Shown here piece by piece: positions 34,400 to 53,429 of a stretch of 64,000 nucleotides of DNA (its first letter is position 1; each line of letters begins with the position of its first letter). The stretch comes from Acidimicrobiia bacterium (GTDB taxonomy: Bacteria; Acidobacteriota; Vicinamibacteria; Vicinamibacterales; CAVVIG01): NCBI GenBank assembly GCA_016871175.1, contig VFZL01000006.1, positions 1 through 64,000 on the forward strand. The letters run 5' to 3'. Below the pieces are notes generated by a model. That model saw only the letters and a list, made by a program, of their open reading frames with translations. It was not told where the DNA came from and did not search any database. The translations under genes were made by a program, and so were the position numbers.

Positions 34400-37300
34400 A
34401 TGCTGCAGACACTCCTCGCTAAAGTCATCGGGACGCAGAACGAACGCGACCTGAAGCGCCTGCGCCCCATCGTCGCCGACGTCAACGCGCTGGAAGCACA
34501 GATTCAGGTGCTGACCGACGAGCAACTGCGTGCCAAGACGGCTGAGTTCAAGCAGCGGGTCGCGGCTGGCGAGACGGTCGACGATCTGCTTGTCGAGGCA
34601 TTTGCCGTCGTTCGAGAAGCCGGCCATCGCGTGCTCAACATGCGGCACTTCGACGTCCAGCTGGTGGGCGGCGCCGTGCTCCACCAGGGCAAGATCGCCG
34701 AGATGAAGACCGGTGAGGGCAAGACGCTGGTCGCCACCCTCCCGGCGTATCTCAACGCGCTCGAAGGCAAGGGTGTGCACGTCGTCACCGTGAACGACTA
34801 CCTCGCCCGGCGCGATTCCGAGTGGATGGGCCGCATCTACCGCTTCCTCGGCATGACTGTCGGCGTGATTCAGCACGAGCTGAACGATCAGGAACGGCAG
34901 CGGGCGTACTCGTGCGATATCACGTACGGGACCAACAACGAGTTTGGATTCGACTACCTCCGCGACAACATGAAGTTCGAGCTCGCGCACTACGTGCAGC
35001 GCGGGCATCACTACGCCATCGTCGACGAGGTCGACAGCATTCTCATCGACGAGGCGCGGACACCGCTCATCATCTCAGGTCCCGCGGAGGAATCTACGGA
35101 CTTGTACTACGAGGTCGATCGCATCATCCCACGCTTGAAGCCGGGAGCCGTGGTTCGAGGCGATACGAAGGCCGAGCAACGCGAGGAGATCGAGGCGACC
35201 GGCGACTACATCGTCGACGAGAAGCACAAGACGGTAACGCTCACCGAGAGCGGCATGGCCAAAGCCGAACAGATGCTGATCCATCGCCTGAACGGCGGCC
35301 ACATCTACGACCTCGAGAACGCTCACATCAAGCACCACGTCGACCAAGCGCTCCGCGCGCACGCCATCTTCAAGCTCGACGTCGACTACATGGTGAAGGA
35401 CGGCGAGGTCGTCATCGTGGACGAGTTCACCGGCCGCCTCATGCCGGGTCGACGCTGGAGCGATGGCTTGCATCAGGCCGTCGAAGCCAAGGAAAGAGTC
35501 AAGATCGAGCGCGAGAACCAGACGCTTGCCACGGTGACCTTCCAGAACTACTTCCGCAAGTACAAGAAGCTCGCCGGCATGACCGGTACCGCCGACACCG
35601 AGGCGGAAGAGTTCGGCAAGATCTACAAGCTCGATGTCGTCGTCATCCCGACCAACCGCAAGCTGACGCGCATCGAGTACTCCGACCTCGTGTACCGCAC
35701 CGAGCACGAGAAGTGGGACGCCATCGTCACGGAGATCATTCAGGAGCACGAGAAGGGACGGCCCGTGCTCGTCGGCACCGTCTCAATCGAGAAGTCCGAG
35801 CGCCTCTCAACCCTCTTGGACCGCGGGGGCTTGAAGCGGGGCACGACCACGGGCGGCGGGTCGGGCAAGCACGTCGTACTAAACGCCAAGTATCACGCCC
35901 AAGAAGCGGAGTTCGTGGCGCAAGCGGGACGCAAAGGCGCGGTGACGATCGCCACGAACATGGCCGGCCGCGGCACGGACATCCTGCTCGGCGGGAATCC
36001 GGAGTTCATGGCTCGCCAGCAGACACTGGCCGAGCAGATCGCCGAGCGCCTGCCAAAGGGCCAGGAGCGCTTTGTCGACGACGAACAGTTCGTCTACTTC
36101 TACCACCTCGATGGGTTCTACCGCGTCGCCCAGGCGGCGTACGAGCGGATCTTCCAGCACTTCAGGGCCCTCACCGACGTAGAGCACGCCGAGGTCGTCT
36201 CGCTGGGCGGACTGCACATCGTCGGCACAGAGCGGCACGAGGCTCGGCGCATCGACAATCAGCTGCGCGGCCGCGCGGGCCGCCAGGGCGATCCGGGATC
36301 GTCGCGTTTCTACCTCTCGCTCCAAGACGATCTGATGCGCATCTTCGGTTCGGATCGCATCTCCGGTCTGATGCAGCGCCTCGGGATGGAAGAAGGCGTG
36401 CCCATCGAGCACGGGATGGTCACGCGGGCCATCGAACGCGCGCAGAGGCAAGTGGAAGCCCAGAACTTCTCCGTCCGCAAGCATTTGCTCGAGTATGACG
36501 ACGTCATGAACAAGCAGCGCGAGAACGTCTACGCACTGCGTCGCCAGATCCTCGAGGGGACGATCAAGTTCGAGGGCGAAGACGACGAGCCCGCGGAAAC
36601 GGTCGACACGCGCGGCTATCTGCTGTCACTGGCTGAAGATGCACTCGACGAGATCGTCGAGACGTCTGCGCCGAAGCAGGCCGACGCCGAGGACTGGGAT
36701 CTCGATGGCCTGAACCTCGAGATCGAGCGCGTCTTCAGCATCGACACGCACGATCTGGACTTTGCCGATCAGTCGTCGGACGAGATTGGTGATCTCCTCT
36801 GGCAGCGGATCAAGGGGGGGTACAGCGAGAAGGAAACGCTGGTTGGCCCAGACATCCTCCGTCGGGTCGAGCGCGACGTCATGCTGCAGATGGTGGACGG
36901 CCAGTGGAAGGACCATCTCTACAGCCTCGATCACCTCAAGGAAGGCATTGGCCTGCGCGGGTACGCGCAGCGGGATCCGCTGGTCGAGTACAAAAAAGAG
37001 AGCTTCGAGCTCTTCACGGCCATGAAAAGCCGTGTCGATCAGGAGATCGTTCGGCTCCTGTGGGGCCTGCGTCCGATGGTGGTCGAGCCGCCCGAGAGCC
37101 GAGCAAGTTCCGCCGAGCCGTCACGTACGGCCGCGGCGGCACGTCCAGTCGCGGCGTCTCGTGCGGCCGGGCCTCCGCGCCGCCGCGCGTCGCTCACCTT
37201 CAACAACCCGTCCGAGGCCGTGCCGGCATTCGCGGTACCTCGCTCCGCAACGGCGACGGCGCCGGGTCTGGGGGATGCGCCGCGCCAGCCCGCCCGCGTC

Positions 37301-37420
37301 GGCGGAGACGACGCGCCGATCAAGACGGTCAGGCGGGACGAGCCGAAGGTCGGGCGCAACGATCCGTGCCCGTGTGGAAGCGGCAAGAAGTACAAGAAAT
37401 GCCATGGAGCCTCGGCGTGA
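34400..37420 (+). CDS. secA: protein translocase subunit SecA
   Basis: A 1006-residue ATPase motor. It has the Walker A region [10 protein letters not shown]-type ([17 protein letters not shown]), [19 protein letters not shown] as the DEAD-box region, the preprotein cross-linking domain and helicase motif GRGTDI. The C-terminal SEC-C zinc motif [20 protein letters not shown] is intact. SecA drives preproteins through SecYEG. Between about residues 930 and 985 is a Pro/Ala/Arg-rich low-complexity linker before the zinc tail. I chose 34400 ([19 protein letters not shown]) over the upstream ATG at 34283 because the family starts there. Confidence 0.97.
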
Positions 37421-37455
37421 TCGGCGCCGCGTTCTCCCCCGCTCGCTCCGTCTCC

Positions 37456-37480
37456 AAAGGCCGACATCTGTCGGCCTTTT
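37456..37480 (+). terminator. Rho-independent terminator after secA
   Basis: The hairpin AAAGGCCGACATCTGTCGGCC followed by TTTT has a ten-base perfect stem with a four-base loop and a short U tract, 36 bases after the secA stop. It separates secA from guaB. It is the clearest terminator in the window. Confidence 0.9.
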
Positions 37481-37544
37481 GTGCATTGACCGTCGGGCCT
37501 CCGCCCCACCCACCACCCGATCAGGATCCAACGAGACGAGTGCC

Positions 37545-39068
37545 ATGAACCCGAAGATTGAGACGCAGCCCACCGCCTCCATTGCCGCGGAGCTCGCCAC
37601 AGCCCTCACGTTCGACGACGTGTTGCTGGTGCCGCAACACTCGACGGTCCTGCCGTACCAGGTCGATGTGAGCACGCGACTGACACGCCGGATTCGTTTG
37701 AACGTGCCGCTCGTCAGCGCGGCCATGGACACAGTCACCGAGTCACGCCTGGCCATCGCGATGGCCCAACACGGCGGGCTCGGCATAATCCACAAGAACC
37801 TGCCGATCGAGGAGCAGGCGTCCGAGGTCGATCGCGTCAAGCGTTCCGAGAGCGGCATGATCGTCGATCCCATCACGCTCTCTCCCACCCACCGGATTTA
37901 CGAAGCGCTCGAGTTGATGAAGAAGTACCGCATCTCGGGCGTCCCAATCACCGAGGATGGCAGCAAAGAAGGGCGCCTGGTCGGCATCCTGACGAATCGT
38001 GACCTTCGTTTCGAAACCAACGTGAACCGAGCGATCTCCGAGGTGATGACGCACGAGGAGCTCATCACGGTCCCGGTGGGCACGACGCTCGAGGGCGCAC
38101 GGGAGATCCTGCACCAGCACAAGGTCGAGAAACTCCTCGTCGTCGACCACAACTTCCGCCTCAAGGGCCTGATCACCGTCAAGGACATTCAAAAGGCCGT
38201 CAAGTATCCGAACGCGTCGAAGGACACTCTGGGTCGGCTCCGGTGCGGCGCCGCGATCGGCATTGCGAAGGACACGCTCGAACGCGCGGCGGCCCTGACC
38301 GCCGCGGGCGTTGACGTGCTCGTGATCGACACCGCCCACGGGCACTCGCAGAACGTCCTGGAGATGGTGGCGATGATTCGCGGCCGCTTCCCCGACATCA
38401 ACTTCGTCGCGGGCAACGTGGCCACCGCCGAGGGCACCGTGGCACTCATCGAGCGCGGCGTGGATGCGGTGAAGGTCGGGATCGGCGCCGGGTCGATTTG
38501 CACGACGCGCGTGGTCGCCGGAATCGGCGTGCCCATGATCACGGCCGTCCAGGAATGCGCGCGCGCCGCCGCCGAATACGACATCCCCATCATCGCCGAC
38601 GGAGGCATCCGCTTCTCCGGCGACATCACCAAGGCGCTCGCCGTCGGCGCAAGCGTGACGATGATCGGCAACCTCTTCGCCGGCACGGACGAAAGCCCTG
38701 GCGAGCTCATCCTCTATCAGGGTCGTAGCTTCAAGGAATATCGAGGGATGGGCTCCATCGGCGCCATGCGGCTCGGTAGCCGCGATCGCTACTTTCAGGA
38801 CGCGTTCGATCTCGACGACCCGGGCGGGCAAGAGAAGCTGGTCCCCGAAGGCATCGAAGGGCGCGTCGCCCACAAGGGCAGCGTCGCTGCGATGGTGCAC
38901 CAGCTCGTTGGCGGATTACGCGCCGGCATGGGCTATTGCGGATGCGGATCCATTCCCGAGCTGCAGCGCAAGAGCCGCCTGGTCCGGATCACCGCCGCCG
39001 GCTTCCGCGAGAGCCACGTGCACGATGTGGCCATTACGAAGGAAGCGCCGAACTACCGATCGGAGTAG
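37545..39068 (+). CDS. guaB: IMP dehydrogenase
   Basis: A 507-residue enzyme. The N-terminal catalytic part ([16 protein letters not shown]) is followed by two CBS domains (about residues 105-225, [20 protein letters not shown] and [20 protein letters not shown]). The catalytic loop then has [15 protein letters not shown] with the active Cys, and [14 protein letters not shown]. It converts IMP to XMP, the committing step to guanine nucleotides. The start is ATG at 37545. It is convergent with tsaE, overlapping by 16 bases. Confidence 0.97.
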
Positions 39069-39511
39069 TTGTGTGCGATGAATCCGAGCGCGCTCTCGTC
39101 ACTGATCGAGATCGCCCTTTGATCACCCTCGCAATGAGCGATGTGCACAGTGATGGCGTGCTCGAACGGACGCGGCAGCCGGTCCGGCCATTCGATCGCG
39201 GTGATGACGTCGCCTAGGGTCATCTCGTCGAGGCCCAGGTCGTCGACCTCGATCGGTTTGAGCCGATAGAGGTCGACGTGCCGCAGGAGCAGCCGCCCGC
39301 CGCGATACTCCTGCATCAGTGTGAACGTGGGGCTGCTGACCTCACAGGGATCCACACCGAGTCCTTCGGCCATGCCGCGGACGAATGCGGTCTTCCCTGC
39401 GCCGAGGTCGCCCGACAGCAGCACGATCGTGCCCCGCTCCAGCGCGCCGGCCACTTGGCGACCGACGTCGACCGTCTCGGTTTCCGATGTGGTGTGAACC
39501 GTGCGACTCAC
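39053..39511 (-). CDS. tsaE: tRNA threonylcarbamoyladenosine biosynthesis ATPase TsaE
   Basis: A 152-residue protein with P-loop [14 protein letters not shown], then [11 protein letters not shown] and [19 protein letters not shown], diagnostic of TsaE. It supports ATP-dependent t6A formation with TsaB and TsaD. It opens with GTG at 39511 in a four-base GTGA overlap with the nnr stop, so the two genes are coupled; the nnr-tsaE pairing recurs in many bacteria. Confidence 0.93.
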
Positions 39512-41079
39512 GTCTGGTTCGACGCCTTCCGCCTCGACATCAGATCCAGATACGCATCGCTCACGTACTGAGCGACATCGCCGGCGATCAACGGGGCGTC
39601 GCCGAGCTCCGCTTCCGCCAGGTCGCCGGCGAGCCCATGAAGATACACGGCCAGCTTGCAGGCCGCCTCCGCATCGAGCAGCTGGGCCAGCCAGGCGGCC
39701 ACCATCCCGCACAGGACATCGCCCGTACCGCCGGTAGCCATCCCAGGATTGCCGGTTGGGTTGATGAAGACCGCCCCACTGGGCGTGGCAATGAGCGTCC
39801 GATGCCCTTTGAGGATCACGTAGAGATGGTGGGTCGTCGCGAAATCGCGTGCGATGGCCAGTCGATTGGCTTGTACATCGTGCGTCGACACGCCAGCGAG
39901 ACGCGCCATCTCGCCCGGATGCGGCGTGATGATGACGTCCCTTCCCTCGCGACCTACGAGTGTCGTCGCGTTGCCAGCGAACGCGTTGAGACCATCGGCA
40001 TCGATGACCAACGGCATGATGGCACGGTCCACGAGCCGGATGACGAAGGCGCGCGTGTCTGCCCCCTGGCCGATCCCAGGTCCTAGCGCCACGACGTCGC
40101 GCGCCCTGTCCAACACACGATCGACCGCAACCGCCGAGAGGCCGTCGGCGTCCTCGGGAATGCCGATGGTCATGTACTCCGGCGCCATCGAGGCTACGAT
40201 AGGCTGGCACGTCTCGCTCGTCGCGACCGTCACGAGCCCGGCACCGGAGCGCAGCGCCCCGATCGCGGCCAGGTGCGCGGCGCCAGTCGTGCCGGTCGAA
40301 CCGCCGATGACGAGGACGTGCCCAAAGTCGCCCTTGTGGCTGTCTGCCGTGCGCGGCACCACGAGGCCCCGCATCGCGTCGGGTGTCAACAGCTCTACCC
40401 GCGGACCGTCCAGCTCGTCGATGACGCCGTCCGGGATCCCGATGTCGGCGATGACGACGTCGCCGGCACGCGTCTCCGCGGGAGGCAACACCAGCGGCAG
40501 CTTCGGCGCTCCGAGCGTAACGGTCATCGACGCGTCGATGCAGGGCCCGATTGGATCGTGTGAGTCAGCCGACAGCCCGGACGGAAGGTCCACGGCCACG
40601 ACCGGGGTGCGCGAGGCGTTGATATCCGCGATGATGGTTTCGAGGAGTCCGCTCACAGGTGAGGACAGTCCCGTTCCCAGGATCGCGTCGATGATGAGCG
40701 CGGCGTCCTCGATCTCAGAGAAGTGCAGCTCCCATGCCTGACTGTCGCCGATCTCGACCACAGTGATACCGAGGCGGCCGAGGATCTCGAGATTGACGCG
40801 TGCGTCACCGCGCACGTCAGAGACACGACCGAGGAGGAACACCGACAAGTCGACGCCGCGCTGGAGCAGCGTGCGTGCAATGACAAAGCCATCGCCGCCG
40901 TTGTTGCCACGGCCGCACAGGATGGCGACATGACCGCCGAGTAGCTCGGCGTGGGTCGCCTCGATCGCCGCCACGACCTGCCGACCCGCGTTCTCCATGA
41001 GCACGAGTGAAGAAATGCCAATGTCCTCGATCGTGCGGCGATCCGCTTCGCGCATCTGCCGCGCGTCCAGAATGCGCAT
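39508..41079 (-). CDS. nnr: bifunctional NAD(P)HX epimerase/dehydratase
   Basis: A 523-residue two-domain enzyme. The N-terminal YjeF epimerase domain (about 1-215) has AILCGRGNNGGDGFVIARTL and AVDLPSGLSADS. The C-terminal ribokinase-like ADP-dependent dehydratase domain (about 230-510) has HVLVIGGSTGTTGAAHLAA and NPTGNPGMATGGTGDVLCG. It repairs hydrated NADH and NADPH. Both domains look complete. Confidence 0.95.
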   Translation of the reverse strand: MRILDARQMREADRRTIEDIGISSLVLMENAGRQVVAAIEATHAELLGGHVAILCGRGNNGGDGFVIARTLLQRGVDLSVFLLGRVSDVRGDARVNLEILGRLGITVVEIGDSQAWELHFSEIEDAALIIDAILGTGLSSPVSGLLETIIADINASRTPVVAVDLPSGLSADSHDPIGPCIDASMTVTLGAPKLPLVLPPAETRAGDVVIADIGIPDGVIDELDGPRVELLTPDAMRGLVVPRTADSHKGDFGHVLVIGGSTGTTGAAHLAAIGALRSGAGLVTVATSETCQPIVASMAPEYMTIGIPEDADGLSAVAVDRVLDRARDVVALGPGIGQGADTRAFVIRLVDRAIMPLVIDADGLNAFAGNATTLVGREGRDVIITPHPGEMARLAGVSTHDVQANRLAIARDFATTHHLYVILKGHRTLIATPSGAVFINPTGNPGMATGGTGDVLCGMVAAWLAQLLDAEAACKLAVYLHGLAGDLAEAELGDAPLIAGDVAQYVSDAYLDLMSRRKASNQT

Positions 41080-41117
41080 GTTGCAGGCAGAATAGCATAG
41101 GCAGTACGCTCGTCCTC

Positions 41118-42029
41118 ATGGTCGTTTCTGCCGCCAACGCCGCTGTCAACGTCAACGGGCAGTTGTTCGACCGCGAGCACGCGGTCATCTCGGTTTTCGA
41201 TCACGGGTTCCTGTACGGCGAGGGCGTCTACGAGACGTTACGCACGTACAACGGCCGCCCATTCCTGTTCGACAGACACATGCACCGGCTTCGCACGTCG
41301 GCGCGGATGATCGCGCTTCCCATCCCGCTGACAGACGCGGAGTTCTCGACACGCTGTGCGGACACGCAGCGGGCCGCCGGCCTCACCGGCGGTGAGGACC
41401 GCGAAGCCTACATCCGCATCCTCGTCACGAGAGGGATCGGCGCGCTCTCCTACGACCCCGCCGTAACCCCTCATCCGTCTGTCGTCGTCATCGTCAAGCC
41501 GCATGTGCAGTTGCCCGAGTCGGTCTATCGCTCAGGCGTGTCCGCGGCCATCGTGTCGATCGTGCGCAATCACCCGGAGACCGTGAATCCGCGCATCAAG
41601 TCGAACAATCTGCTGAACTGCGCCCTGGCCGCACAGGAGGCTGTGCGCCGTGACGCTTTCGAAGGCATCATGCGCAACCATCGAGGGGAGCTCGCCGAGT
41701 GCTCGACCTCGAACCTCTTCATCGTCAAGAACGGTCAGGTTCTCACACCGCCGCTCGAGGCCGGCCTCCTCCCGGGTCTCACGCGCGGGCTTCTCTTCGA
41801 GATCGGTGCCGCGCGAGGGATTTCAGTGCGAGAAGCAACCCTGCTCGACGCGGATCTCTTCGGTGCCGACGAGGCGTTCCTGACCAGTACCACTCGGGAG
41901 ATCGTCCCAATCGTCCGCGTCGACGATCGTCCGATCGCCTCGGGCGCGCCCGGGCCCGTCGCCCTCGCCCTGCTCGAGGCGTTCCGCGAACAGGTGCATA
42001 GCGGCCCGCGTGCTGCGAATCAGCTCTGA
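41118..42029 (+). CDS. PLP-dependent class IV aminotransferase / aminodeoxychorismate lyase-like
   Basis: A 303-residue fold-type IV PLP enzyme. It has VFDHGFLYGEGVYETLRTYN at the substrate end, the PLP Lys in VNPRIKSNNLLNCALAAQEA (about residue 160), the Glu-containing ECSTSNLFIV and GLLPGLTRG. This fold covers branched-chain aminotransferases (IlvE), D-amino acid aminotransferases and 4-amino-4-deoxychorismate lyase (PabC). The sequence read here does not decide between them. It is divergent from nnr across 38 bases. Confidence 0.9.
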   Translation: MVVSAANAAVNVNGQLFDREHAVISVFDHGFLYGEGVYETLRTYNGRPFLFDRHMHRLRTSARMIALPIPLTDAEFSTRCADTQRAAGLTGGEDREAYIRILVTRGIGALSYDPAVTPHPSVVVIVKPHVQLPESVYRSGVSAAIVSIVRNHPETVNPRIKSNNLLNCALAAQEAVRRDAFEGIMRNHRGELAECSTSNLFIVKNGQVLTPPLEAGLLPGLTRGLLFEIGAARGISVREATLLDADLFGADEAFLTSTTREIVPIVRVDDRPIASGAPGPVALALLEAFREQVHSGPRAANQL

Positions 42030-42176
42030 GCTCGCGGACCGCTCGGCAGGCGATCCCAGGACATACGGATGCCGATCAACCGCGCGCCTGCGCCGGCACC
42101 GTGGGCTTCAACGGCCTGGTCGTGGTCGAGGCGCGCGGATCCGCGGCGCACCACGCAGGTACCGCGTCGTCTGACG

Positions 42177-42638
42177 TCACCAGCCAGGCCAGAGCGCAGC
42201 GAGGAGTTCGACCAGCGCGGCCGGATCAGAGGACGCGGCGGTCGCCGTCTTCTTCACGAAGATCTCGAACACGGCGCCAGGAGCGTTTCCGATGTTGCGG
42301 AACCCGTGACGTGTGCCGCGTTTCATGAAGAATGCCTGCCCTGGCTTGGCCGTCACCGGGGCGTCGTTGCCCATCGTGAACTCGAACGTCCCTTCGACCG
42401 GCGTCCACACGTGATACTCGACATCGTCGTGCGCGTGGACGCTGCGCCTCGCGCCCGGCTGCAGGTCGATGCGCGACACACGGATCTCGTCGCGATCGAT
42501 CAAGCGTGTGGGCCGCACACCCGGGTCGGCTTCCGGCTGGGGACCAAGGCGGGCCGAGGACTGCCCCCTGGCGTTCGTGGTCAACACGACGGCTAGCAGG
42601 CAGGCTGTGAGCGCGAGATGGCGGGTGAGCACGCGCAT
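42177..42638 (-). CDS. secreted cupin-domain protein
   Basis: A 153-residue protein with a signal peptide (hydrophobic segment about residues 8-22, cleavage near NARG). The cupin core has VHAHDDVEYHVWTPVEGTFE (metal-binding His pair and Glu) and KPGQAFFMKRGTRHGFRNIG (second His). Cupins of this size are metal-dependent or ligand-binding; the role is not identifiable. The start is ATG 42638. It sits behind gcvP, on the same strand, with 39 bases between. Confidence 0.8.
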   Translation of the reverse strand: MRVLTRHLALTACLLAVVLTTNARGQSSARLGPQPEADPGVRPTRLIDRDEIRVSRIDLQPGARRSVHAHDDVEYHVWTPVEGTFEFTMGNDAPVTAKPGQAFFMKRGTRHGFRNIGNAPGAVFEIFVKKTATAASSDPAALVELLAALWPGW

Positions 42639-42677
42639 GGAAGTCTTCCCAGAGGTCCGTGTGCCCGCGAAGGCAGG

Positions 42678-45557
42678 CTAGGCAGTTGTGTCCGCGAACA
42701 CCTCGACTGGCGGGCACGCGCACATCAGGTTACGGTCACCGTACGGATTATCGATCCGTCCAACGCTCGGCCAGAACTTGTGCGTCCGAAGATACGGGAG
42801 CGGAAATGCGGCTTCCTCTCGAGAGTAGGCATGCGGCCAATCACTGCCCGCGACTGCCGCCGCCGTATGCGGCGCATGCTTCAAGACGTTGTCCTTCGGG
42901 TCCGCCTTGCCTTCGATGACGTCCTGTATCTCCCGCCGGATCTTGATCATCGCGTCGCAGAAGCGGTCGAGCTCTTCTTTGGGCTCGCTCTCTGTCGGCT
43001 CCACCATGAGCGTGCCGGCCACGGGGAAAGACACCGTCGGTGCGTGGAAGCCGAAGTCCATGAGCCGCTTCGCGACATCGGTTTCGTCGATGCCGCTGGC
43101 TTGCTTCAGCGAGCGGAGGTCGAAAATCAGCTCGTGCGCGACGCGGCCGTTCGCGCGGGCATAGAGCACTGGGAAGTGCGGCTCCAACCGCGCCTTCATG
43201 TAGTTGGCGCTCAGGATCGCGACCTTCGTCGCCTCTGTCATGCCCGCGCCACCAAGCATCCGGATATAGCCGTACGAGATCAACAGGATGCTCGAGCTTC
43301 CCCAGGGTGCGGCCGATACGGCGTTGATCCCCTGTGCGCCACCCGTCGGCACCAGCGGGTGCTTCGGCAGAAACGGCGCGAGATGGGCCGCCACGCCGAT
43401 CGGTCCCATCCCCGGGCCACCGCCGCCATGGGGGATCGCAAACGTCTTGTGAAGGTTCAGATGGCAGACGTCCGCCCCAATGATCGACGGGCTCGTCAGG
43501 CCGACCTGCGCATTCATGTTCGCCCCGTCCATGTACACCTGGCCGCCATGTCGATGGACGATCGCGCAGATGTCCTGGATGCTCTCCTCGAAGACCCCGT
43601 GCGTCGACGGGTACGTGACCATGAGGGCTGCCACTTGCCGTGCATGCTCCTGGGTCTTGGCCGCCAGGTCCTCGACGTCGATGCTGCCGTCTCTCGTGCT
43701 GGCCACGACGACCACCCGCATCCCGGCCATGACCGCGCTGGCCGGATTCGTGCCGTGCGCGGACGCGGGAATCAGCACCACATTGCGATGTGAGTCCCCC
43801 CGAGACCGGTGATACGCCCGGATCACCATGAGTCCGGCGTACTCACCTTGCGCACCGGAGTTCGGCTGCAGCGACACCGCCGCGAACCCGGTGATCTCGC
43901 GAAGTGCCGCCTCGAGCTCGCGAAAGATCTGCTGGTATCCCTCCGTCTGATCGATCGGCGCGAAGGGATGCGGCTTCGAGAACTCGGGCCAGGTAAGCGG
44001 CAGCATCTCTGACGCCGCGTTCAGTTTCATCGTGCAGGAACCGAGGGGGATCATCGACCTGTCGAGGCCAATGTCCTTTCGATCGAGGCTCCTGATGTAT
44101 CGCATCATCTCCGACTCGGAGTGATGTGTGTTGAACACCGGATGCGTGAGAAATGGGCTTGTCCGCGCCAGAGACGCTGAATACGCAGGCTCCAACCGCT
44201 CAGCGCTCTTGTCGAACTGCGCCGACGACAGACCCCGAGCCGCCGCGAACGTCCGGACGATGTTCTCGACGTCGTGTAGGTTCGTGGTCTCGTCCACTGC
44301 GATGTTGACGCTGCCATCCGCACGGTAGCGGAAGTTCTGGCGCGCCGCGACAGCGCTGGCCTTCAACCGCTCTCTATCGACACCCTCGAGCTTGATGGTG
44401 TCGAAATACTCCGGATTGACCTGGCGGACGCCGAGGCGACCGAGCTCGCGGGCCAGCAGCTTCGTCGTCGCATGGACGCGCCTGGCAATGTTCGTTAGCC
44501 CCCGCGGACCGTGGTACACGGCATAGAACCCGGCCATGTTCGCGAGCAAGGCCTGCGCGGTGCAGATGTTCGATGTGGCCTTCTCTCGCCGGATGTGCTG
44601 CTCACGCGTCTGCAGCGACATGCGGTAGGCGGGATGCCCGTGGGCGTCCACTGATACGCCGATGATGCGGCCGGGAGCCTGACGCACGTGCTTCTCAAGC
44701 GTGGCGAAGAACGCGGCGTGCGGACCGCCGTATCCCATCGGCACGCCGAACCGCTGCGAGTTGCCCAGCACGACGTCGGCGCCCCACTCCCCTGGCGGTG
44801 TCAGGAGTGTCAAGCTAAGAAGATCGGTGGCGACGGCCACCAACAGGCCAGCCGCTCGCGCCCGTACGATGAACGGCCCGAAGTCGTGGACAACTCCGCC
44901 CTCATCGGGTGTCTGGACGATGGCGCCGAACATGCGCTCGGTGAGCGGCGTCGTGTGGACGTCCGCCACGACCACCTCGATGCCGAGCGGCTCGGCCCTC
45001 GACCTGATCACGTCGATGGTCTGAGGAAAACAGGAGTTCGCCACAAGAAACTGCATCACATCGGCATGATCTCGCTGCGGATGTACGCGGTGGAGCATCG
45101 TCATGGCCTCACCGCCGGCCGTGGCCTCGTCCAAGAGCGACGCGGTGGCGACCTCCATCCCGGTCAGATCCCGCACCATGGTCTGGAAGTTCAAGAGCGC
45201 CTCGAGGCGCCCTTGCGCGATCTCCGCTTGATACGGCGTGTAGGGCGTATACCAGGACGGGTTCTCCAATACGTTCCGCAGGATGACGCTCGGCGTGACG
45301 CAGTCGTAGTACCCCAGGCCGATGTACGACCGGAACGCTTGGTTCTTCCCGGCCACGTCACGAAGATCTCGGAGGTACTCGTGCTCGGGCATGCTGGTCG
45401 GCAGGTTCAACGTCCGGCCCAGGCGAATGCGACTCGGGATGGCCTCAGCGATTAGCGCGTCCAGGGACCCCGCGCCGGTAGCCGCGAGCATCTCTTTCGC
45501 ATCGTTCGGATCGGGGCCAATGTGCCGGGATTGAAATGGTTCAGCGTCGAACATCAT
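42678..45557 (-). CDS. gcvP: glycine dehydrogenase (P protein)
   Basis: A 959-residue single-chain P protein. The C-terminal half holds the PLP Lys in [18 protein letters not shown] and preceding VCHLN. The N-terminal half carries the structural repeat (FIGLGYYD-like [26 protein letters not shown]). It decarboxylates glycine and loads the aminomethyl group on the H protein. It is the third gene of gcvT-gcvH-gcvP; gcvP begins one base after the gcvH stop. Either of two adjacent ATGs (45557, 45554) may start it. Confidence 0.97.
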
Positions 45558-45558
45558 G

Positions 45559-45933
45559 CTATTTCGTGAGGGCCTCGTACGCCGCTGCGTCGAGGAGTGT
45601 GCCTACCTCAATCGGATCCGACAGCTTGATGACGACCATCCAACTCGCGTGCGGGTCGGAGTTCACGAGCTCGGGCTTCTGCTTGAGCGCCGCGTTGACT
45701 TCAGCGACGACACCGGACACCGGCGCGAAGAGCTCCGAGACCGCTTTCACCGACTCGATCGTGCCGAACGACTGGCCCACCTTCACGGTCCTTCCAACCT
45801 CCGGAAGCTCCATGAACACGACGTCGCCAAGCTGCTGTTGTGCGTAGTCGGTAATCCCCACCTTCCCACGATCGCCTGCGAGATCGATCCACTCGTGGTC
45901 TTTGGTGTACTTGTATCCCGCCGGATAGGGCAT
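45559..45933 (-). CDS. gcvH: glycine cleavage system H protein
   Basis: A 124-residue lipoyl carrier. The lipoylation Lys is in [18 protein letters not shown], and the N-terminal [20 protein letters not shown] is typical. It shuttles the aminomethyl group between P and T proteins. It lies 15 bases after gcvT. Confidence 0.97.
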
Positions 45934-45948
45934 CGTCCTCTCCCGAAG

Positions 45949-47064
45949 TTACATCGAGCGCTTGTAGAATGGCAACGGCACGACGCGTGCGCGCTCGCGT
46001 CGGCCGCGGATGTCGACGTGGATCTCGGTGCCTGAGGCCGCCGCGGCGACCGACACGTACGCAAGCCCGACGGCCTTCTTCAAGTACGGCGTCTGGGTCC
46101 CGCTGGTGACCCGGCCAATCTTCGTATCGCCGCTGTAGACGTCGTATCCGGACCGGGCGATGCCGGCGTCGATCGTCTCGAATCCAACCAGCCTCCGAGA
46201 GACACCTGCCGCCTTTTGCGCGCGGAGTGCGTCAGCACCCAGAAAGTCGGTCTTCTTCCACCCGACGATCCAGCCCAGATCCGCCTCGAGCACGGTCGTC
46301 GTCTCGTCGATGTCGCTCCCGTGTAGCCGCATGCCAGCCTCGAGCCGCAACGTGTCGCGCGCACCCAGGCCGCACGGCACGACACCGACCGACCGGCCGG
46401 CGTCGAGCAGGGCGAGCCAGACGCGATCCGCTGACTGAGGCGGCACGAAGATCTCGAAGCCGTCCTCGCCCGTGTAGCCCGTCCGCGAGACGGTCGCCCG
46501 CACGTGCGCCACCTCGCCGTGTGCGAACCAGTAGTACTTCATCGACGCCAGGTCGATGGCGGTGAGCGGCTGCAGGATACCGAGAGCCGCAGGACCTTGC
46601 AGCGCGAGCAGCGCGTACCGTCCGCTGGCGTCGACCGCTACGGCATCACCAGCCGGTCGGATGTTCTCGGCGATGTGCGCGTAGTCTCGATCGATGTGCG
46701 ACGCATTGACGACGAGGAGGAAGTGGTTCGGCGCGAGGCGATAGACGAGCAGATCGTCAACGAAGGTGCCCGCGGAAGTGAGCAAGCCGGAGTATTGCGC
46801 TTGGCCGACCTTCAGCTTTGCGGCGTCGTTGCACGAGATCCGCTGCACCGCTTCGAGCGCCTGGTCACCAGCGATTTCGATCTGACCCATATGGCTCACG
46901 TCGAACAGTCCCGCTCTTTCGCGCACGGCCATGTGTTCGGCCGTGATGCCGGTGTACTCGACGGGCATCTCCCAGCCGCCGAAGGGCACCATGCGCCCCC
47001 CTGAAGCGCAATGCCGCGCGTGCAACGGCGTCTTCTTCAGCGGGAGATCCGTGGGCTGGGTCAT
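45949..47064 (-). CDS. gcvT: glycine cleavage system T protein (aminomethyltransferase)
   Basis: A 371-residue tetrahydrofolate-dependent aminomethyltransferase. Features include [47 protein letters not shown] and [19 protein letters not shown]. The start at 47064 ([18 protein letters not shown]) is favoured by family length; the ATG at 47103 adds 13 unlike residues. It is the first gene of the operon. The 91 bases between it and the divergent hydrolase gene are too short for a tandem glycine riboswitch, and none was seen. Confidence 0.95.
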
Positions 47065-47155
47065 GAAGCGGGCTTCGACAGTGTGTGTGTGGGAGATAAT
47101 CAACGGTACTATGCGTCTTTCCCCGGGTCAAGAATCCGGGCTACACTCAGGCGCT

Positions 47156-48076
47156 ATGTCTCGTGCGCGCGTTCGTCACGTCGTGGCGCTCGCCGTGGTG
47201 GTCGCGGTGGAGGGGTCCCGCGCGGCCCACGCTCAACCGACGCGTGCGATGGATCTTCAGCCAGTCACAAAGCAGGTGGCCGCAAACGGGCTCTCGTTCC
47301 CGGTCGCCGATGTGGGCACGGGCCCTCCCGTGCTTCTGCTGCACGGCTTCCCGGATGACCGTCATCTGTGGCGCTATCAGGCTCGCGCGCTCGTGGACGC
47401 CGGGTATCGGGTGATCGCGCCGGACTTACGCGGTTTTGGCGACGCGCCGCGGCCCCAGGATCCGAAAGAGTATGGCATTCCCATCGCGGTCCGCGATGTC
47501 ATCGGCATCCTCGACACGCTGGGCGTCCAGCAGGTACAGCTGGTCGCGCACGATTGGGGGGCAGCGGTCGGATGGCGGTTGGCCGCTGATCACCCGCAGC
47601 GGGTTTCGCGCTACGTCGCCATGTCGGTCGGCGCACCAGGGGCGGGTACGACGATCGAACAGCGTGAGAAGTCGTGGTACATGCTCTTCTTTCGGCAGAC
47701 CGGGATCGCCGAGCAGCAGCTCATGGCGAACAACTGGGAGTTGTTTCGTGAATGGGGGCGCAACCCCATTGACGTCGATCGATGGATCGCGAACCTGTCA
47801 CGCCCAGGCGCCCTGACCGCGGCGTTGAACTGGTACCGCGCAACCGGCGGAGGTCCGCCGACCTCGGCCGCCGGACCGGCGCCCCAGGTCCAGTGCCCCG
47901 TGCTCGGCATCTGGAGCGACGGGGACGCTTACCTGACGGAGTACCCGCTGCGATCGAGCGGCGAGCGCATCAAAGGACCGTTTCAGTACATCAAAGTCAC
48001 CGGGGCCTCGCACTGGCTCATGGTGGATAGACCGGCGGAGATCAACGAGAAGCTGCTGGCCTTTCTGGTGAAGTAG
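47156..48076 (+). CDS. secreted alpha/beta hydrolase, epoxide-hydrolase-like
   Basis: A 306-residue protein with a signal peptide ending AAHA-Q (about residue 26). Its alpha/beta fold shows [16 protein letters not shown] (oxyanion loop), [13 protein letters not shown] and the nucleophile elbow [11 protein letters not shown] with Asp as nucleophile. These are typical of epoxide hydrolases and haloalkane dehalogenases. A C-terminal catalytic His occurs in [13 protein letters not shown], and an acidic residue in WSDGDAYL. The substrate is unknown; a periplasmic location is unusual for this family. The start is ATG 47156. Confidence 0.85.
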
Positions 48077-48101
48077 GGCTGCGGTCCCAAGCCACACTGC
48101 C

Positions 48102-49532
48102 TCAACCTGCGAGCTTGTGAGGCCCGCCTGCTGCCGCCACGCTAGTCGCTGCGTCAACGGCTTCCGCTGGTTCACCCGGCGCGCGATATTGCAGGTACGC
48201 GCCGAGCGTGTGATAGCTGATATCGAGCACACGGCAGGCCTCCCGCTTGTTGCCATGGCAACGCCCGAGGATCAACCGCGCATATCGGGCACCCCAGGCA
48301 CGCATGGTGTCGCTCCGTCGGAGCGATGGCCCGAGGACCTCGGCGTAGTGGCCCCGAACGGCGGCCGGCAGGTCGTGCAGCTCGATCACATCGGATTCCG
48401 CAAGGGCGACCGCTCGCTCGATCAACCGTTGTAGCTCACGGACGTTCCCCGGCCAGTCATACGCGAGGAGTGCTTCAGACGCCGCAGGCGACAACCGGAG
48501 GGCGTGCTCGGCACGGTGGCGCTCGAGAAAATACCGCGCGAGCTCCAGAATGTCGGCTCGACGTTCCCGTAACGGCGGCACGTGGACTTCGACCCCGGCG
48601 AGGCGATAGAACAGATCGGGCCGAAACAACTGTCGATCGACCAGACCGCTGAGGCCCCGATTCGTCGCGGCGACGATTCTCACGTCTACACGGTGTGCGC
48701 CATGCCCCCCGACGCGCTCCTGGATCGCGCGCAGCAGCTTCGCCTGTGCGGCACAGGACAAGTCGGAGATCTCGTCGAGAAACAGCGTGCCCCCATCCGC
48801 GTGTTCGAACTTCCCGCGACGCCCCCGAACGCCCGTGGCGGTGCGATCCTCGATGCCGAAGAGCTCCGCCTCCACCAGCGTCTCGACGATGGCGGCGCAG
48901 TTGACCGCCACGAAGGGACCGCCGCGGCGGGGGCTGAGATCGTGGATCTGACGCGCCACGAGCTCCTTCCCCACGCCGCTCTCCCCTTCGATGAGCACGG
49001 TGAAGGGCGTGTTCGCGACGCGCTCGACGCGGGAGCGGAGGTCCGCCATCGCCGCCGTGGACCCGATGAGCGGGGCCGCGCCGTCGCGTTCTGGTCGCGT
49101 GCCCTGTGAGGCGCGCGCGAGCTGCATCTGACTTCGGTCGAGCTCCACGACGAGACTCGCGACCTGCGCAGCGATTCGCAGCGTTTGCAACTCCCAATCA
49201 CCGACGGTGGCACCCTCGGAAAACGCGCACTGAAGCACAGCTCGGCTCTGTGTCTCTCGAACCGGAACCTCGACGCAGACGAGCTTCTCCCGCAAGCTCT
49301 CACGTGGGGCGGGTAGCGCCGCCCGCCGGAGATACACGGTGCGGGCACGGAGCACTCGCTGCAGCGACTCCTCCAACGCCGCACGAAGGGAAGCCACACC
49401 ACCACGCGCGACAGCGCGTCCGAGCGCGCTCGCGATCGCCTCGAAGCCGTCGCGAGGGTCGGCCCGTCGCGGCTGCAGGGCTCCGCGAGTGACTTCAGTC
49501 TGAACCCGAGTGGCAGATGATCGCATTGACAC
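48102..49532 (-). CDS. Fis-type AAA+ transcription regulator lacking the GAFTGA loop
   Basis: About 476 residues. An N-terminal GAF-like region (about 15-145) precedes an AAA+ domain with Walker A EGESGVGKELVARQIHD and Walker B GGTLFLDEISDLS. The C-terminal Fis helix-turn-helix reads NKREACRVLDISYHTLGAYL. Where sigma-54 activators have GAFTGA, this protein reads IEDRTATGVRGRRGKFE, so the loop that contacts sigma-54 is altered. It may therefore regulate without sigma-54, as TyrR does. I favour a GTG start at 49532 because GGAGG lies five bases before it; ATG 49526 and TTG 49556 are alternatives. It is convergent with the hydrolase gene. Confidence 0.8.
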   Translation of the reverse strand: MSMRSSATRVQTEVTRGALQPRRADPRDGFEAIASALGRAVARGGVASLRAALEESLQRVLRARTVYLRRAALPAPRESLREKLVCVEVPVRETQSRAVLQCAFSEGATVGDWELQTLRIAAQVASLVVELDRSQMQLARASQGTRPERDGAAPLIGSTAAMADLRSRVERVANTPFTVLIEGESGVGKELVARQIHDLSPRRGGPFVAVNCAAIVETLVEAELFGIEDRTATGVRGRRGKFEHADGGTLFLDEISDLSCAAQAKLLRAIQERVGGHGAHRVDVRIVAATNRGLSGLVDRQLFRPDLFYRLAGVEVHVPPLRERRADILELARYFLERHRAEHALRLSPAASEALLAYDWPGNVRELQRLIERAVALAESDVIELHDLPAAVRGHYAEVLGPSLRRSDTMRAWGARYARLILGRCHGNKREACRVLDISYHTLGAYLQYRAPGEPAEAVDAATSVAAAGGPHKLAG

Positions 49533-49737: not shown

Positions 49738-50709
49738 CTACTTCGTGACGGTCACCGTCAACTCCTCATCACCCAGCAGCCCACCATCGTCTGCGCGGGC
49801 GCGGAGGACGTACAAGCCGGGCGTATCGAACGTGGCGGTCGCGGTGTACTTGCCACCCTCTGGTATCGGCGGTGCAATACAAATCGGCGCCCACGGGGAG
49901 TTGGCACCCGCACGCGTGTCTTCCCGCACCTTGACCTGAATCGGGTCGAACGTAGCCTTGCCGGGTCCGCGATACACGAACTACGACAAGTGAAGACCCA
50001 GCCACTTGCCTACCGTCAGGCGAATCGGCGGCATGTAGTTCCGTCGCACCAGCATCGCTGGATTAGGCGGCGGACCACCCTGCCCGATGACCATTCCCTT
50101 GGGAATGCCACCATCGGTGACGACGGCCGCAAGCGCCACGGGTTCACCGACCTTCGCCGTTCGGGTCTTCGCCCCCTCGATCTGGGCGACCGGCGGCTTG
50201 TTGGACCGCATGGTGGGGTTGCTGGCTCCGGCGCCGAGCGCACCGGTCTCAGACGCGATCACCACGGAGTCCATGAAATAGTCCTGGCGCAGCGTGGCAT
50301 AGGCCTTCTCGGTCACGCCGTGTGTCTTGAGCGTCCACACGAGCTCTTTGTTGCTGAAATCTTTGGGCACCTTGACCTTGAACACGAAGCGGTTTCGGCG
50401 TGGCAGGAACCTGGTTGGCTGCCCGAGGTCGGCTCCAATCAGGTTGAAGCTGTTGTCCGGACCCACCGGCACGTCGATCTCTTCCTCCCAGTTGTTGTTC
50501 ATGTAGCCGAATACAAAGCTCGACGACCCATCCGGATTCGTCTCCCAACCCTCGAAGGCTGGCGACACGGGCTGACCACGGGAGTAGCTGAGCGACTGTG
50601 CGCTGTTCGTACGCTCCAGCACGAACAGCGCGGCTGCCGTCGGGGCCGCCGCTCCAACAAGACGCCACTGCGAGCGACCACGGGTGGACAGAGAACTCAT
50701 GTGCCTCAT
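49738..50709 (-). pseudogene. conserved secreted protein gene with in-frame amber codon
   Basis: The frame runs 324 codons from 50709 (MRHMSSLSTRGR) through a hydrophobic segment suggestive of a signal peptide. It includes a beta-rich body (FGYMNNNWEEEIDVPVGPDN, FVFKVKVPKDFSNKELVWTL). At codon 243 (49981-49983) a TAG interrupts LHLS-stop-FVYRGPGKATFDP; the expected residue is probably Trp (TGG to TAG is one base). The remaining 80 codons carry DTRAGANSPWAP, and the frame is otherwise intact. I do not recognise a characterised function. It lies 11 bases after the cytochrome/monooxygenase-like gene as the second gene of an operon, and both are interrupted. Confidence 0.8.
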
Positions 50710-50720
50710 GCGCTCCCTGA

Positions 50721-52127
50721 TTAGTCGTTCCCTTGGTGGTTCGTGGTCGCCACCGGGGGTGGCGGGTCGACCAGGCAGAGCGGACACCCGATCACGTGGT
50801 CATTCTTGGTCAGCTTCAGCCGTTCGCGGCGCTTGGCCATCTCGGCCTGGAATTCCGCATCGCTCAACGCCACGCCCTGACCGAGATCGATGAACATGGC
50901 GGCCACCGAGCGGTTACCCGAGCCTTGCCAGTTCCTCGGATCAGGCACGTTCTTGTTCGCAGGCGAGTTGTCCATGAAGCCGATGACGTGGAGGATCGTC
51001 TCCTTCGGCAGCAGCGGCGCCGAATCATCGGTGTACTCGTAGGCGCGCACCCAGTTGTGGTCATAGCCCGAGCACGTCAACGTCTGGATGTTGTAGCCCC
51101 AGATCGCCTCGAGACACATGCGCGCGCCAGGGGCCTGTAGATGCGGCTCAAACGAGGTGATCTTCGTGTGCTCCTGCAGCACGGTGTACGCATGCAGCTA
51201 CTGGTTCGCTTCCATCGGACGGATCGAGATGTCGACGCCTTTGCCCAGGCCCCGTGACGCGGACGGACGCAACGTTGGCTTGTAGTCCTTGGGGTGGAGC
51301 TTGAAGCCGATCTCGAGGTGGCCCTTGGTGTCGCGGCCGTTCGAGTGCAAATGCACCGAGTCGGTCACGATGTTGGAGCCGGTACGAAGCAGGCGCCCCG
51401 CCCGCGGATCGAAGGTGTCTGCATTTCGGCCCACCTCGTGCACGGGCCACGGCGTGTTGACCCCTTCACCGCCGCCCTTGTCAGTGGACCAAATCATGTG
51501 GTGGAAGACGTACCGGCCGCCCACGGTGGCTCGCCCAGAACCTCCGCTCGGCACGTCGTTGAACCCCTTGATCTCCAACGCCGCGACATAGCGGTCCTCC
51601 GTCAGCCCGACCGGCGGCGGCGGAATCTCGCCCCACCAGTCCGGCGCAGCCGCCTTCACCGTGATTTCGGGCAGCTTCACAATGGGGTCAGGCGTACCGA
51701 TGATCCACTTCTTGTCGTCCGCAAACTCCCGGGCGGGTGGCAGGTCAGCCTTGTCGCCCAGCGGAGCGCCGCTATCAGCCCATTGGGCGATGAGTGCGAT
51801 CTCCAGCTCACTCAGCGACGGGTCGTTCTTGTACTGTTGGATCCCGATGTTGTGCTCTACGTACCACGGTGGCATTACGCCAGCCTTCGGTCCGATGCCC
51901 GTTCGTGCCTTGATCGAACGAGCCCAAGGACGTACCTGCTCATACGTGGTGAGCGGCATCGGGCCGGCTCCGTCTGGGCGATGTCAGTTCTGGCAGCTTC
52001 GCTGGAGGATCGGTGCGATGTGCTTGGCTTAGGTTACCGTCTCCGGCAACGCCTGCGCGAATCCGGAAGACGGGATACACAGCACAGCCACCGCGAACCC
52101 GATCGTCGCGACTGAACCGATTCTCAT
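50721..52127 (-). pseudogene. c-type cytochrome / copper-monooxygenase-like protein gene with three in-frame stops
   Basis: A 469-codon frame begins at 52127 with an AAGGAG ribosome site at 52135-52140 and a signal peptide (MRIGSVATIGFAVAV, ending GFAQA). It is broken by TAA at 52029-52031 (codon 33), TGA at 51984-51986 (codon 48) and TAG at 51198-51200 (codon 310), without any frameshift. The first part reads HIAPILQRSCQN-stop-HRP, a CxxCH heme motif whose second Cys codon is TGA. The rest resembles the Acidobacterial family with PMPLTTYEQVRPWARSIK, MPPWYVE and a C-terminal copper type II ascorbate-dependent monooxygenase-like domain. It is the first gene of the two-gene operon. An IS630 remnant lies just upstream. 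Confidence 0.85.
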
Positions 52128-52199
52128 GCGGATGCTCCTTCGATCCTGCGATCCTGGTGCTCAGTGATCAGCACCCCAGACCGGGGTGTCTGCACCAAG

Positions 52200-52643
52200 C
52201 GCACCCCGCCCCGTAGCTCAACGTTACGTCCTGCGGTTCAGCCAGGTCACCGACGAAGGCCCACCATCGGTGGGACGACCGTCTGGCGCTGGCTCGCCGC
52301 CGATGCCGTCCGGCGCTGGCGCCATCGCAGGTGGTTGTTCCCGTGCGATCCGGCGTTCGCCGCCCAAGCGAGGCCCATCCTCGATCTGTATGCCGGGGTC
52401 TGGCAGGGCGAGCCGCTGACGGCGGAGGACTGCGTCCAGATTGAGATCTACTTCTCCGTGGTACAACGCAAGGTCCTGACGCCGGGCGATTTCGCCGACC
52501 TCACCACCCTTGAAGAGGCGCTGCTCGGATTCCAGCACCGGTACGAAACGGCCGCACACCCATTCGAGTGGACCTTCACGCGCCAGGACCTGACCGCGCT
52601 CCTCGCCCGACTGGCGCTCGCCGGGCAACGGCCGGCCGCCTGA
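52200..52643 (+). mobile_element. internally deleted IS630-family transposase remnant
   Basis: From about 52255 the frame reads TTVWRWLAADAVRRWRHRRW and LDLYAGVWQGEPLTAEDCVQ, the early-middle part of IS630-type transposases. It then jumps directly to RKVLTPGDFADLTTLEEALL and HRYETAAHPFEWTFTRQDL, which is the C-terminal end. The DDE catalytic core between is missing. The N-terminus upstream of 52255 is also lost or scrambled. It is therefore a dead fragment; no terminal inverted repeats were identified. It sits between the broken operon and the dienelactone hydrolase gene. Confidence 0.75.
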
Positions 52644-52736: not shown

Positions 52737-53429
52737 ATGGCAGAGACCGTGCAGTTTCGCAGCAACGGCCACCCGGTGTCGGGCTACCTCGTCGTCCCCG
52801 ACGCGGGTAAGGGCCCGGGAGTGCTGGTCATCCAGGAGTGGTGGGGACTCGATCCGAGCTTGAAGGAGACCACGAACAAGCTAGGCGCAGCTGGATTCGT
52901 CGCCTTGGCACCCGACCTGTACCACGGAGCGCTCGCACAACACAACGAGATGGACAAGGCCGCGCACCTGATGCAGAGCCTGCCTGCGGACCGGGCTGGC
53001 CGGGACATGAGCGCCGCAGTCGACTACCTCACGACCCATCCGGCCGTCACGAGCGCCAGCATCGGCGTCATCGGCTTCTGCATGGGCGGCATGCTGTCGT
53101 TCCTCATCTCGGCGAACCGACCGGATCGGGTGAAGGCGGTCGTGCCGTTCTATGGCTTCCCGCAGGGCGACACGGAACCCGACTGGACCAGGATCACCGC
53201 TCGCGTGCAAGGTCACATGGCTGAACACGATGACTTCTTCCGGCCCGACGCGGCGCGGGCTCTGGAAGCCAAGCTGCGTGGCCTCGGGAAGGACGTGACC
53301 CTCACCGTTCATCCCGGCACCGGTCACGCGTTTATGGGACCCCACAACGCGTTGGGTACCCTCGACCCTCAGCTCGCAGCTCGCATTTGGCCGCAAGTCT
53401 TCGCGTTCCTCCGCGAGTCACTCGCGTAG
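52737..53429 (+). CDS. dienelactone hydrolase family protein
   Basis: A 230-residue alpha/beta hydrolase. It has VIQEWWGLDPSLKETTNKL (oxyanion), the nucleophile elbow GVIGFCMGGMLSF with Cys, a catalytic Asp in EHDDFF and His in GTGHAFMG. This is the Cys-Asp-His triad of dienelactone hydrolases, which open carboxymethylenebutenolide or related esters. No aromatic-degradation genes are near, so the substrate is unclear. The start is ATG 52737. Confidence 0.92.
   Translation: MAETVQFRSNGHPVSGYLVVPDAGKGPGVLVIQEWWGLDPSLKETTNKLGAAGFVALAPDLYHGALAQHNEMDKAAHLMQSLPADRAGRDMSAAVDYLTTHPAVTSASIGVIGFCMGGMLSFLISANRPDRVKAVVPFYGFPQGDTEPDWTRITARVQGHMAEHDDFFRPDAARALEAKLRGLGKDVTLTVHPGTGHAFMGPHNALGTLDPQLAARIWPQVFAFLRESLA

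Follow-up and report, generated by a model that had tools for sequence, protein, structure and literature searches.

In Salmonella, Kuo and Ochman (2010, PMC2916853) counted 346 pseudogenes with a single disabling hit, and in 131 of these the hit was a premature stop. In mutation accumulation with Myxococcus xanthus, a high-GC soil bacterium, 428 substitutions were recorded together with 39 indels; simple tandem repeats accounted for 27 of these, and 12 fell elsewhere (PMC11069108). Allo-tRNAs with an ochre anticodon occur in nature (PMC7609411). The locus compared here with these systems is a two-gene operon, A and B, in a 64,000-nucleotide stretch of DNA (the window) from a soil bacterium of the Acidobacteriota; the operon carries four in-frame stops, and a literature search for the A/B protein family in Acidobacteria found nothing. 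Its pattern is one of ordinary gene decay and not a new way of reading stops, and with a probability of roughly 0.93 the operon is a recently decayed, ordinary pseudogene pair.

The broken operon and its intact relatives

The features of the locus are collected in Table 1, in which G001 (Acidobacteria sp. RBC058 MAG) is the sole same-genus genome compared. Gene A occupies a single frame of 468 codons, and B has an alternative ATG at 50700. Relative to intact homologues, no frameshift is found in A and B across ~790 codons: A aligns with its intact same-genus orthologue free of gaps, and B differs from its own by a one-codon indel in a variable stretch and by a variable N-terminus. Because the frame is otherwise collinear with ~80 homologues, the four stops are not a product of chance. 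The original prediction, that the cytochrome/monooxygenase-like gene holds TAA, TGA and TAG and its partner TAG with no frameshift, is thus confirmed codon by codon, and the signal peptide and the AAGGAG ribosome site, which it described as kept, are both present.

Table 1. Location of the operon, its stop codons and its surroundings in the window
Feature	Position	Strand	Remarks
Pseudogene A: exported c-type cytochrome (CXXCH) fused to a predicted DBH/PHM-fold copper-monooxygenase-like domain	52127-50721	-	in-frame TAA, TGA, TAG
TAA in A, codon 33	52031-52029	-	F or Y in homologues
TGA in A, codon 48	51986-51984	-	second Cys of the CXXCH heme motif; C in 36/36 homologues
TAG in A, codon 310	51200-51198	-	Q in the sister and 18 others
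Natural TAA terminator of A	50723-50721	-	
Pseudogene B: exported partner protein, predicted Ig-like beta sandwich	50709-49738	-	in-frame TAG on invariant Trp
TAG in B, codon 243	49983-49981	-	W in 33/33 ungapped homologues
Natural TAG terminator of B	49740-49738	-	
AAGGAG ribosome-binding site of A	52140-52135	-	same GAAGGAG before the A gene in G001
IS630-family transposase remnant, N-terminal piece joined to C-terminal piece	~52266-52589	+	internal deletion of ~115 codons; divergent from operon
Open frame holding the IS630 pieces	52164-52643	+	
Dienelactone-hydrolase gene	52737-53429	+	between operon and next syntenic block
Stretch downstream of the operon, in collinear order with G001:C105, holding a sigma-54-type regulator, an epoxide-hydrolase-like gene, gcvTHP, IMPDH and secA	36359-49477	.	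synteny

Neither A nor B reaches the cut-off of any Pfam model; the N-terminal segment of A gives a weak match to Cytochrome_CBB3 in 35/35 members, and in the member shown this match stays under the curated cut-off. The predicted model of the intact G001 A (pLDDT 78) matches human dopamine beta-hydroxylase (4zel) with a Foldseek E of 4e-9, as well as many PHM entries, at modest TM-scores (0.32-0.59, by target), and by this fold match A is predicted to descend from a DBH/PHM-like copper type II monooxygenase. No variation is seen among the 35 aligned proteins of the A family at five histidines (H209, H210, H259, H329 and H331) or at a candidate Met, and the HH pair at 209/210, H259 and H329-x-H331 follow the order of the copper ligands of PHM, with similar spacing. 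By this order and spacing these residues are candidate copper ligands, and H331 is a putative CuM ligand. The model of B (pLDDT 83) shows Ig-like beta sandwiches, and its Foldseek matches are Ig-like domain proteins with low TM-scores.

The related loci, 79 in all, come from records under the labels Acidobacteria, Gemmatimonadetes and Gammaproteobacteria. B comes immediately after A in ~75 of them, and these A-B loci are free of internal stops save for L107, which has one close to the C-terminal end. In G001 both genes are uninterrupted at the syntenic place (G001:C105:403-2790), with protein identities of 85% for A and ~81% for B, and the two genomes are collinear over ~15 kb comprising the operon, the sigma-54-type regulator, glycine cleavage genes, IMPDH and secA. 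The comparison with close relatives that had been proposed as a check therefore returns intact copies. None of the neighbouring genes examined in the syntenic block contains an internal stop.

The window genome (4.4 Mb) yields 36 tblastn matches to A and 20 to B, many of these paralogues being intact; the best paralogue of A is 67% identical, and among the 36 A matches the window copy alone has internal stops. An apparent second broken copy, L117, was rejected, its interruption being a run of N (assembly gap). The cytochrome c/copper-monooxygenase-like proteins and their Ig-like partners thus form a large paralogous family in one 4.4 Mb genome. In a related genome, three A matches of the locus L043 (G011:C140) fall within 11 kb and B copies lie nearby, suggestive of tandem operon duplication.

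Reading of the stop codons

Selenocysteine machinery is present in the window genome: the genes for SelA and SelB lie side by side at L163 741-4312 (G000:C29, G000 being the window genome), and the gene for a tRNA-Sec with the anticodon UCA at L123 1501-1595 (G000:C15); SelA is also present in the sister G001. Since this machinery coexists with a TGA placed on a heme cysteine, the TGA deserved a test for selenocysteine (Sec). It could be imagined that full-length A and B are made by read-through of several stops, Sec replacing the heme-ligating cysteine (CXXU-H) and the other stops being suppressed, and the Sec machinery together with the redox position of the TGA speaks for such a reading. 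However, no SECIS-like hairpin follows the TGA of A, where the fold is no better than that of shuffled sequences (z -0.16), and the frame is not open apart from the TGA: translation would already terminate at the preceding TAA of codon 33, and a TAG lies downstream. No tRNA with a UUA or CUA anticodon was found among 39 tRNA loci, in an assembly that is 96.8% complete and in which some ordinary tRNAs are missing. All homologues have Cys, not Sec, at the position, and further essential-looking residues are lost as well. Selenocysteine or suppressor reading was rejected on the hairpin, the upstream TAA and the 39 tRNA loci, and multi-stop read-through has hardly any probability left, the smallest of the readings considered. 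The suggestion that the operon reflects an unusual tolerance of stops is not supported either, given the lack of suppressor tRNA and SECIS-like hairpin in these searches, the use of three different stop codons, and the loss of a putative copper ligand and of Trp residues.

Constraint, age and the lack of indels

The damage extends beyond the stops. At columns invariant in ~25 close homologues, the window copy carries six missense changes (E188G, N296K, H331Q and N410A in A; D200G and W262R in B) versus none in the G001 copy (binomial p 0.03), and when the two stops that fall on such columns are also counted, the contrast becomes 8 vs 0 (p 0.008). H331Q hits a His shared without exception by the 35 aligned A proteins. 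Window-specific changes with unanimous outgroups number 15 vs 7 in the sister (p 0.13; small numbers), and changes with BLOSUM62 <= -2 number 5 vs 0 (p 0.06; small numbers). As judged from these alignments, constraint was lost at otherwise invariant residues of the window copy.

These residues bear on two other explanations. One is that base errors in the consensus or assembly, or a mixture of strains, produced the stops in the contig, which would fit a genome that is a draft of 85 contigs. Yet the defects are concentrated in A and B with intact neighbours in the syntenic block, an excess of radical missense changes comes with the stops, contamination is given as 0.44%, and a strain mixture would still require one strain carrying the stops. 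The intact neighbouring genes and the radical missense excess make base error or a mixed-strain consensus unlikely, at a few chances in a hundred. According to the other explanation, truncated products keep a function, either B up to codon 242, with its signal and most of the protein, or fragments of A made by re-initiation, for which a 253-aa open stretch beginning with ATG is available. Such an A fragment would be devoid of the signal and the heme motif and would stop short of the copper-binding HxH, and in B the truncation would remove conserved residues along with part of the C-terminal region. The radical changes W262R and W277C follow the B stop. Retained function in truncated products is accordingly rated about half as probable as an artefact.

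For the preferred reading, a recently decayed operon, the age of the decay is approached through selection on the whole branch. A codon model gives an omega of 0.049 on the window branch and 0.073 on the sister branch (LRT, 2dlnL 0.56). Because the window omega does not exceed that of the sister, most of the window branch is considered to have passed under purifying selection, and the decay to be young compared with the split of the two species. In the comparison with the sole same-genus genome, synonymous sites are saturated, so that omega gives no date and the age is poorly bounded. The proposal of recent inactivation agrees with this unraised bulk omega, with the few radical changes at invariant sites and with the intact syntenic sister copy. 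The stops and invariant-site missense changes together fit ~45 neutral substitutions (CI ~20-80); four stops are slightly many for that number (P(>=4) ~0.03-0.11), and this excess is not strong evidence for another explanation.

The lack of indels had been seen as at odds with ordinary decay. The Myxococcus xanthus counts correspond to ~0.03-0.09 indels per substitution in a high-GC soil bacterium, from which ~1-4 indels are expected in the operon, and the probability of no indel for 45 substitutions ranges from 0.02 (all indels) to 0.28 (non-repeat indels). No homopolymer of six or more occurs in the operon (longest <=5). With this low ratio and no homopolymer above 5, the lack of indels is unremarkable, and the Myxococcus xanthus rates and the single-stop pseudogenes of Salmonella imply that substitution-only decay needs no special explanation; the premise that it is odd falls away. 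A narrowly worded literature search on the indel ratio returned no match.

A proposed upstream rearrangement and comparison with known systems

An IS630 remnant adjoins the operon upstream, as originally described. Its deletion is in-frame and one open frame is kept, and the remnant is a single copy in the genome. Similarity to G001 ends 14 bases ahead of the start codon of A, with nothing shared upstream of the ribosome site; the dienelactone-hydrolase gene has no close counterpart in G001, and synteny resumes at ~53613 with another G001 contig, G001:C8. Since G001 has an assembly gap at this break, promoter loss is a plausible inference and not a demonstration: a mobile-element rearrangement may have removed the operon promoter and begun the decay. 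In the proposed course of events, an IS630-associated rearrangement at the 5' edge would have silenced the operon and started its decay, the A-B unit having perhaps been dispensable because of paralogues in the same genome. On the preferred reading the operon lost its function and several tens of unselected point substitutions then accumulated, of which four made stops and several more destroyed invariant residues.

The event itself matters little: a single lineage has lost one of the many copies of an exported copper-enzyme operon. The locus is of use as a clean example of early decay in a high-GC genome, in which stops and radical missense changes precede any indel, and as a caution that substitution-only stops alone do not suggest recoding, even in a Sec-decoding genome.

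Two comparisons place the locus among known systems. Like the young pseudogenes of Salmonella (PMC2916853), the window operon represents a lineage-specific inactivation by premature stops with an intact positional orthologue; unlike most of them, which have a single disabling change, it shows several changes in two adjacent genes. With the operon family of c-type cytochrome/DBH-PHM-like copper monooxygenases and Ig-like partners in Acidobacteriota, Gemmatimonadota and Gammaproteobacteria, the window copy shares gene order, length, signal, heme-motif context and most conserved residues, and it differs from that family in the loss of heme Cys48 and of the putative copper ligand His331, and in its four stops.
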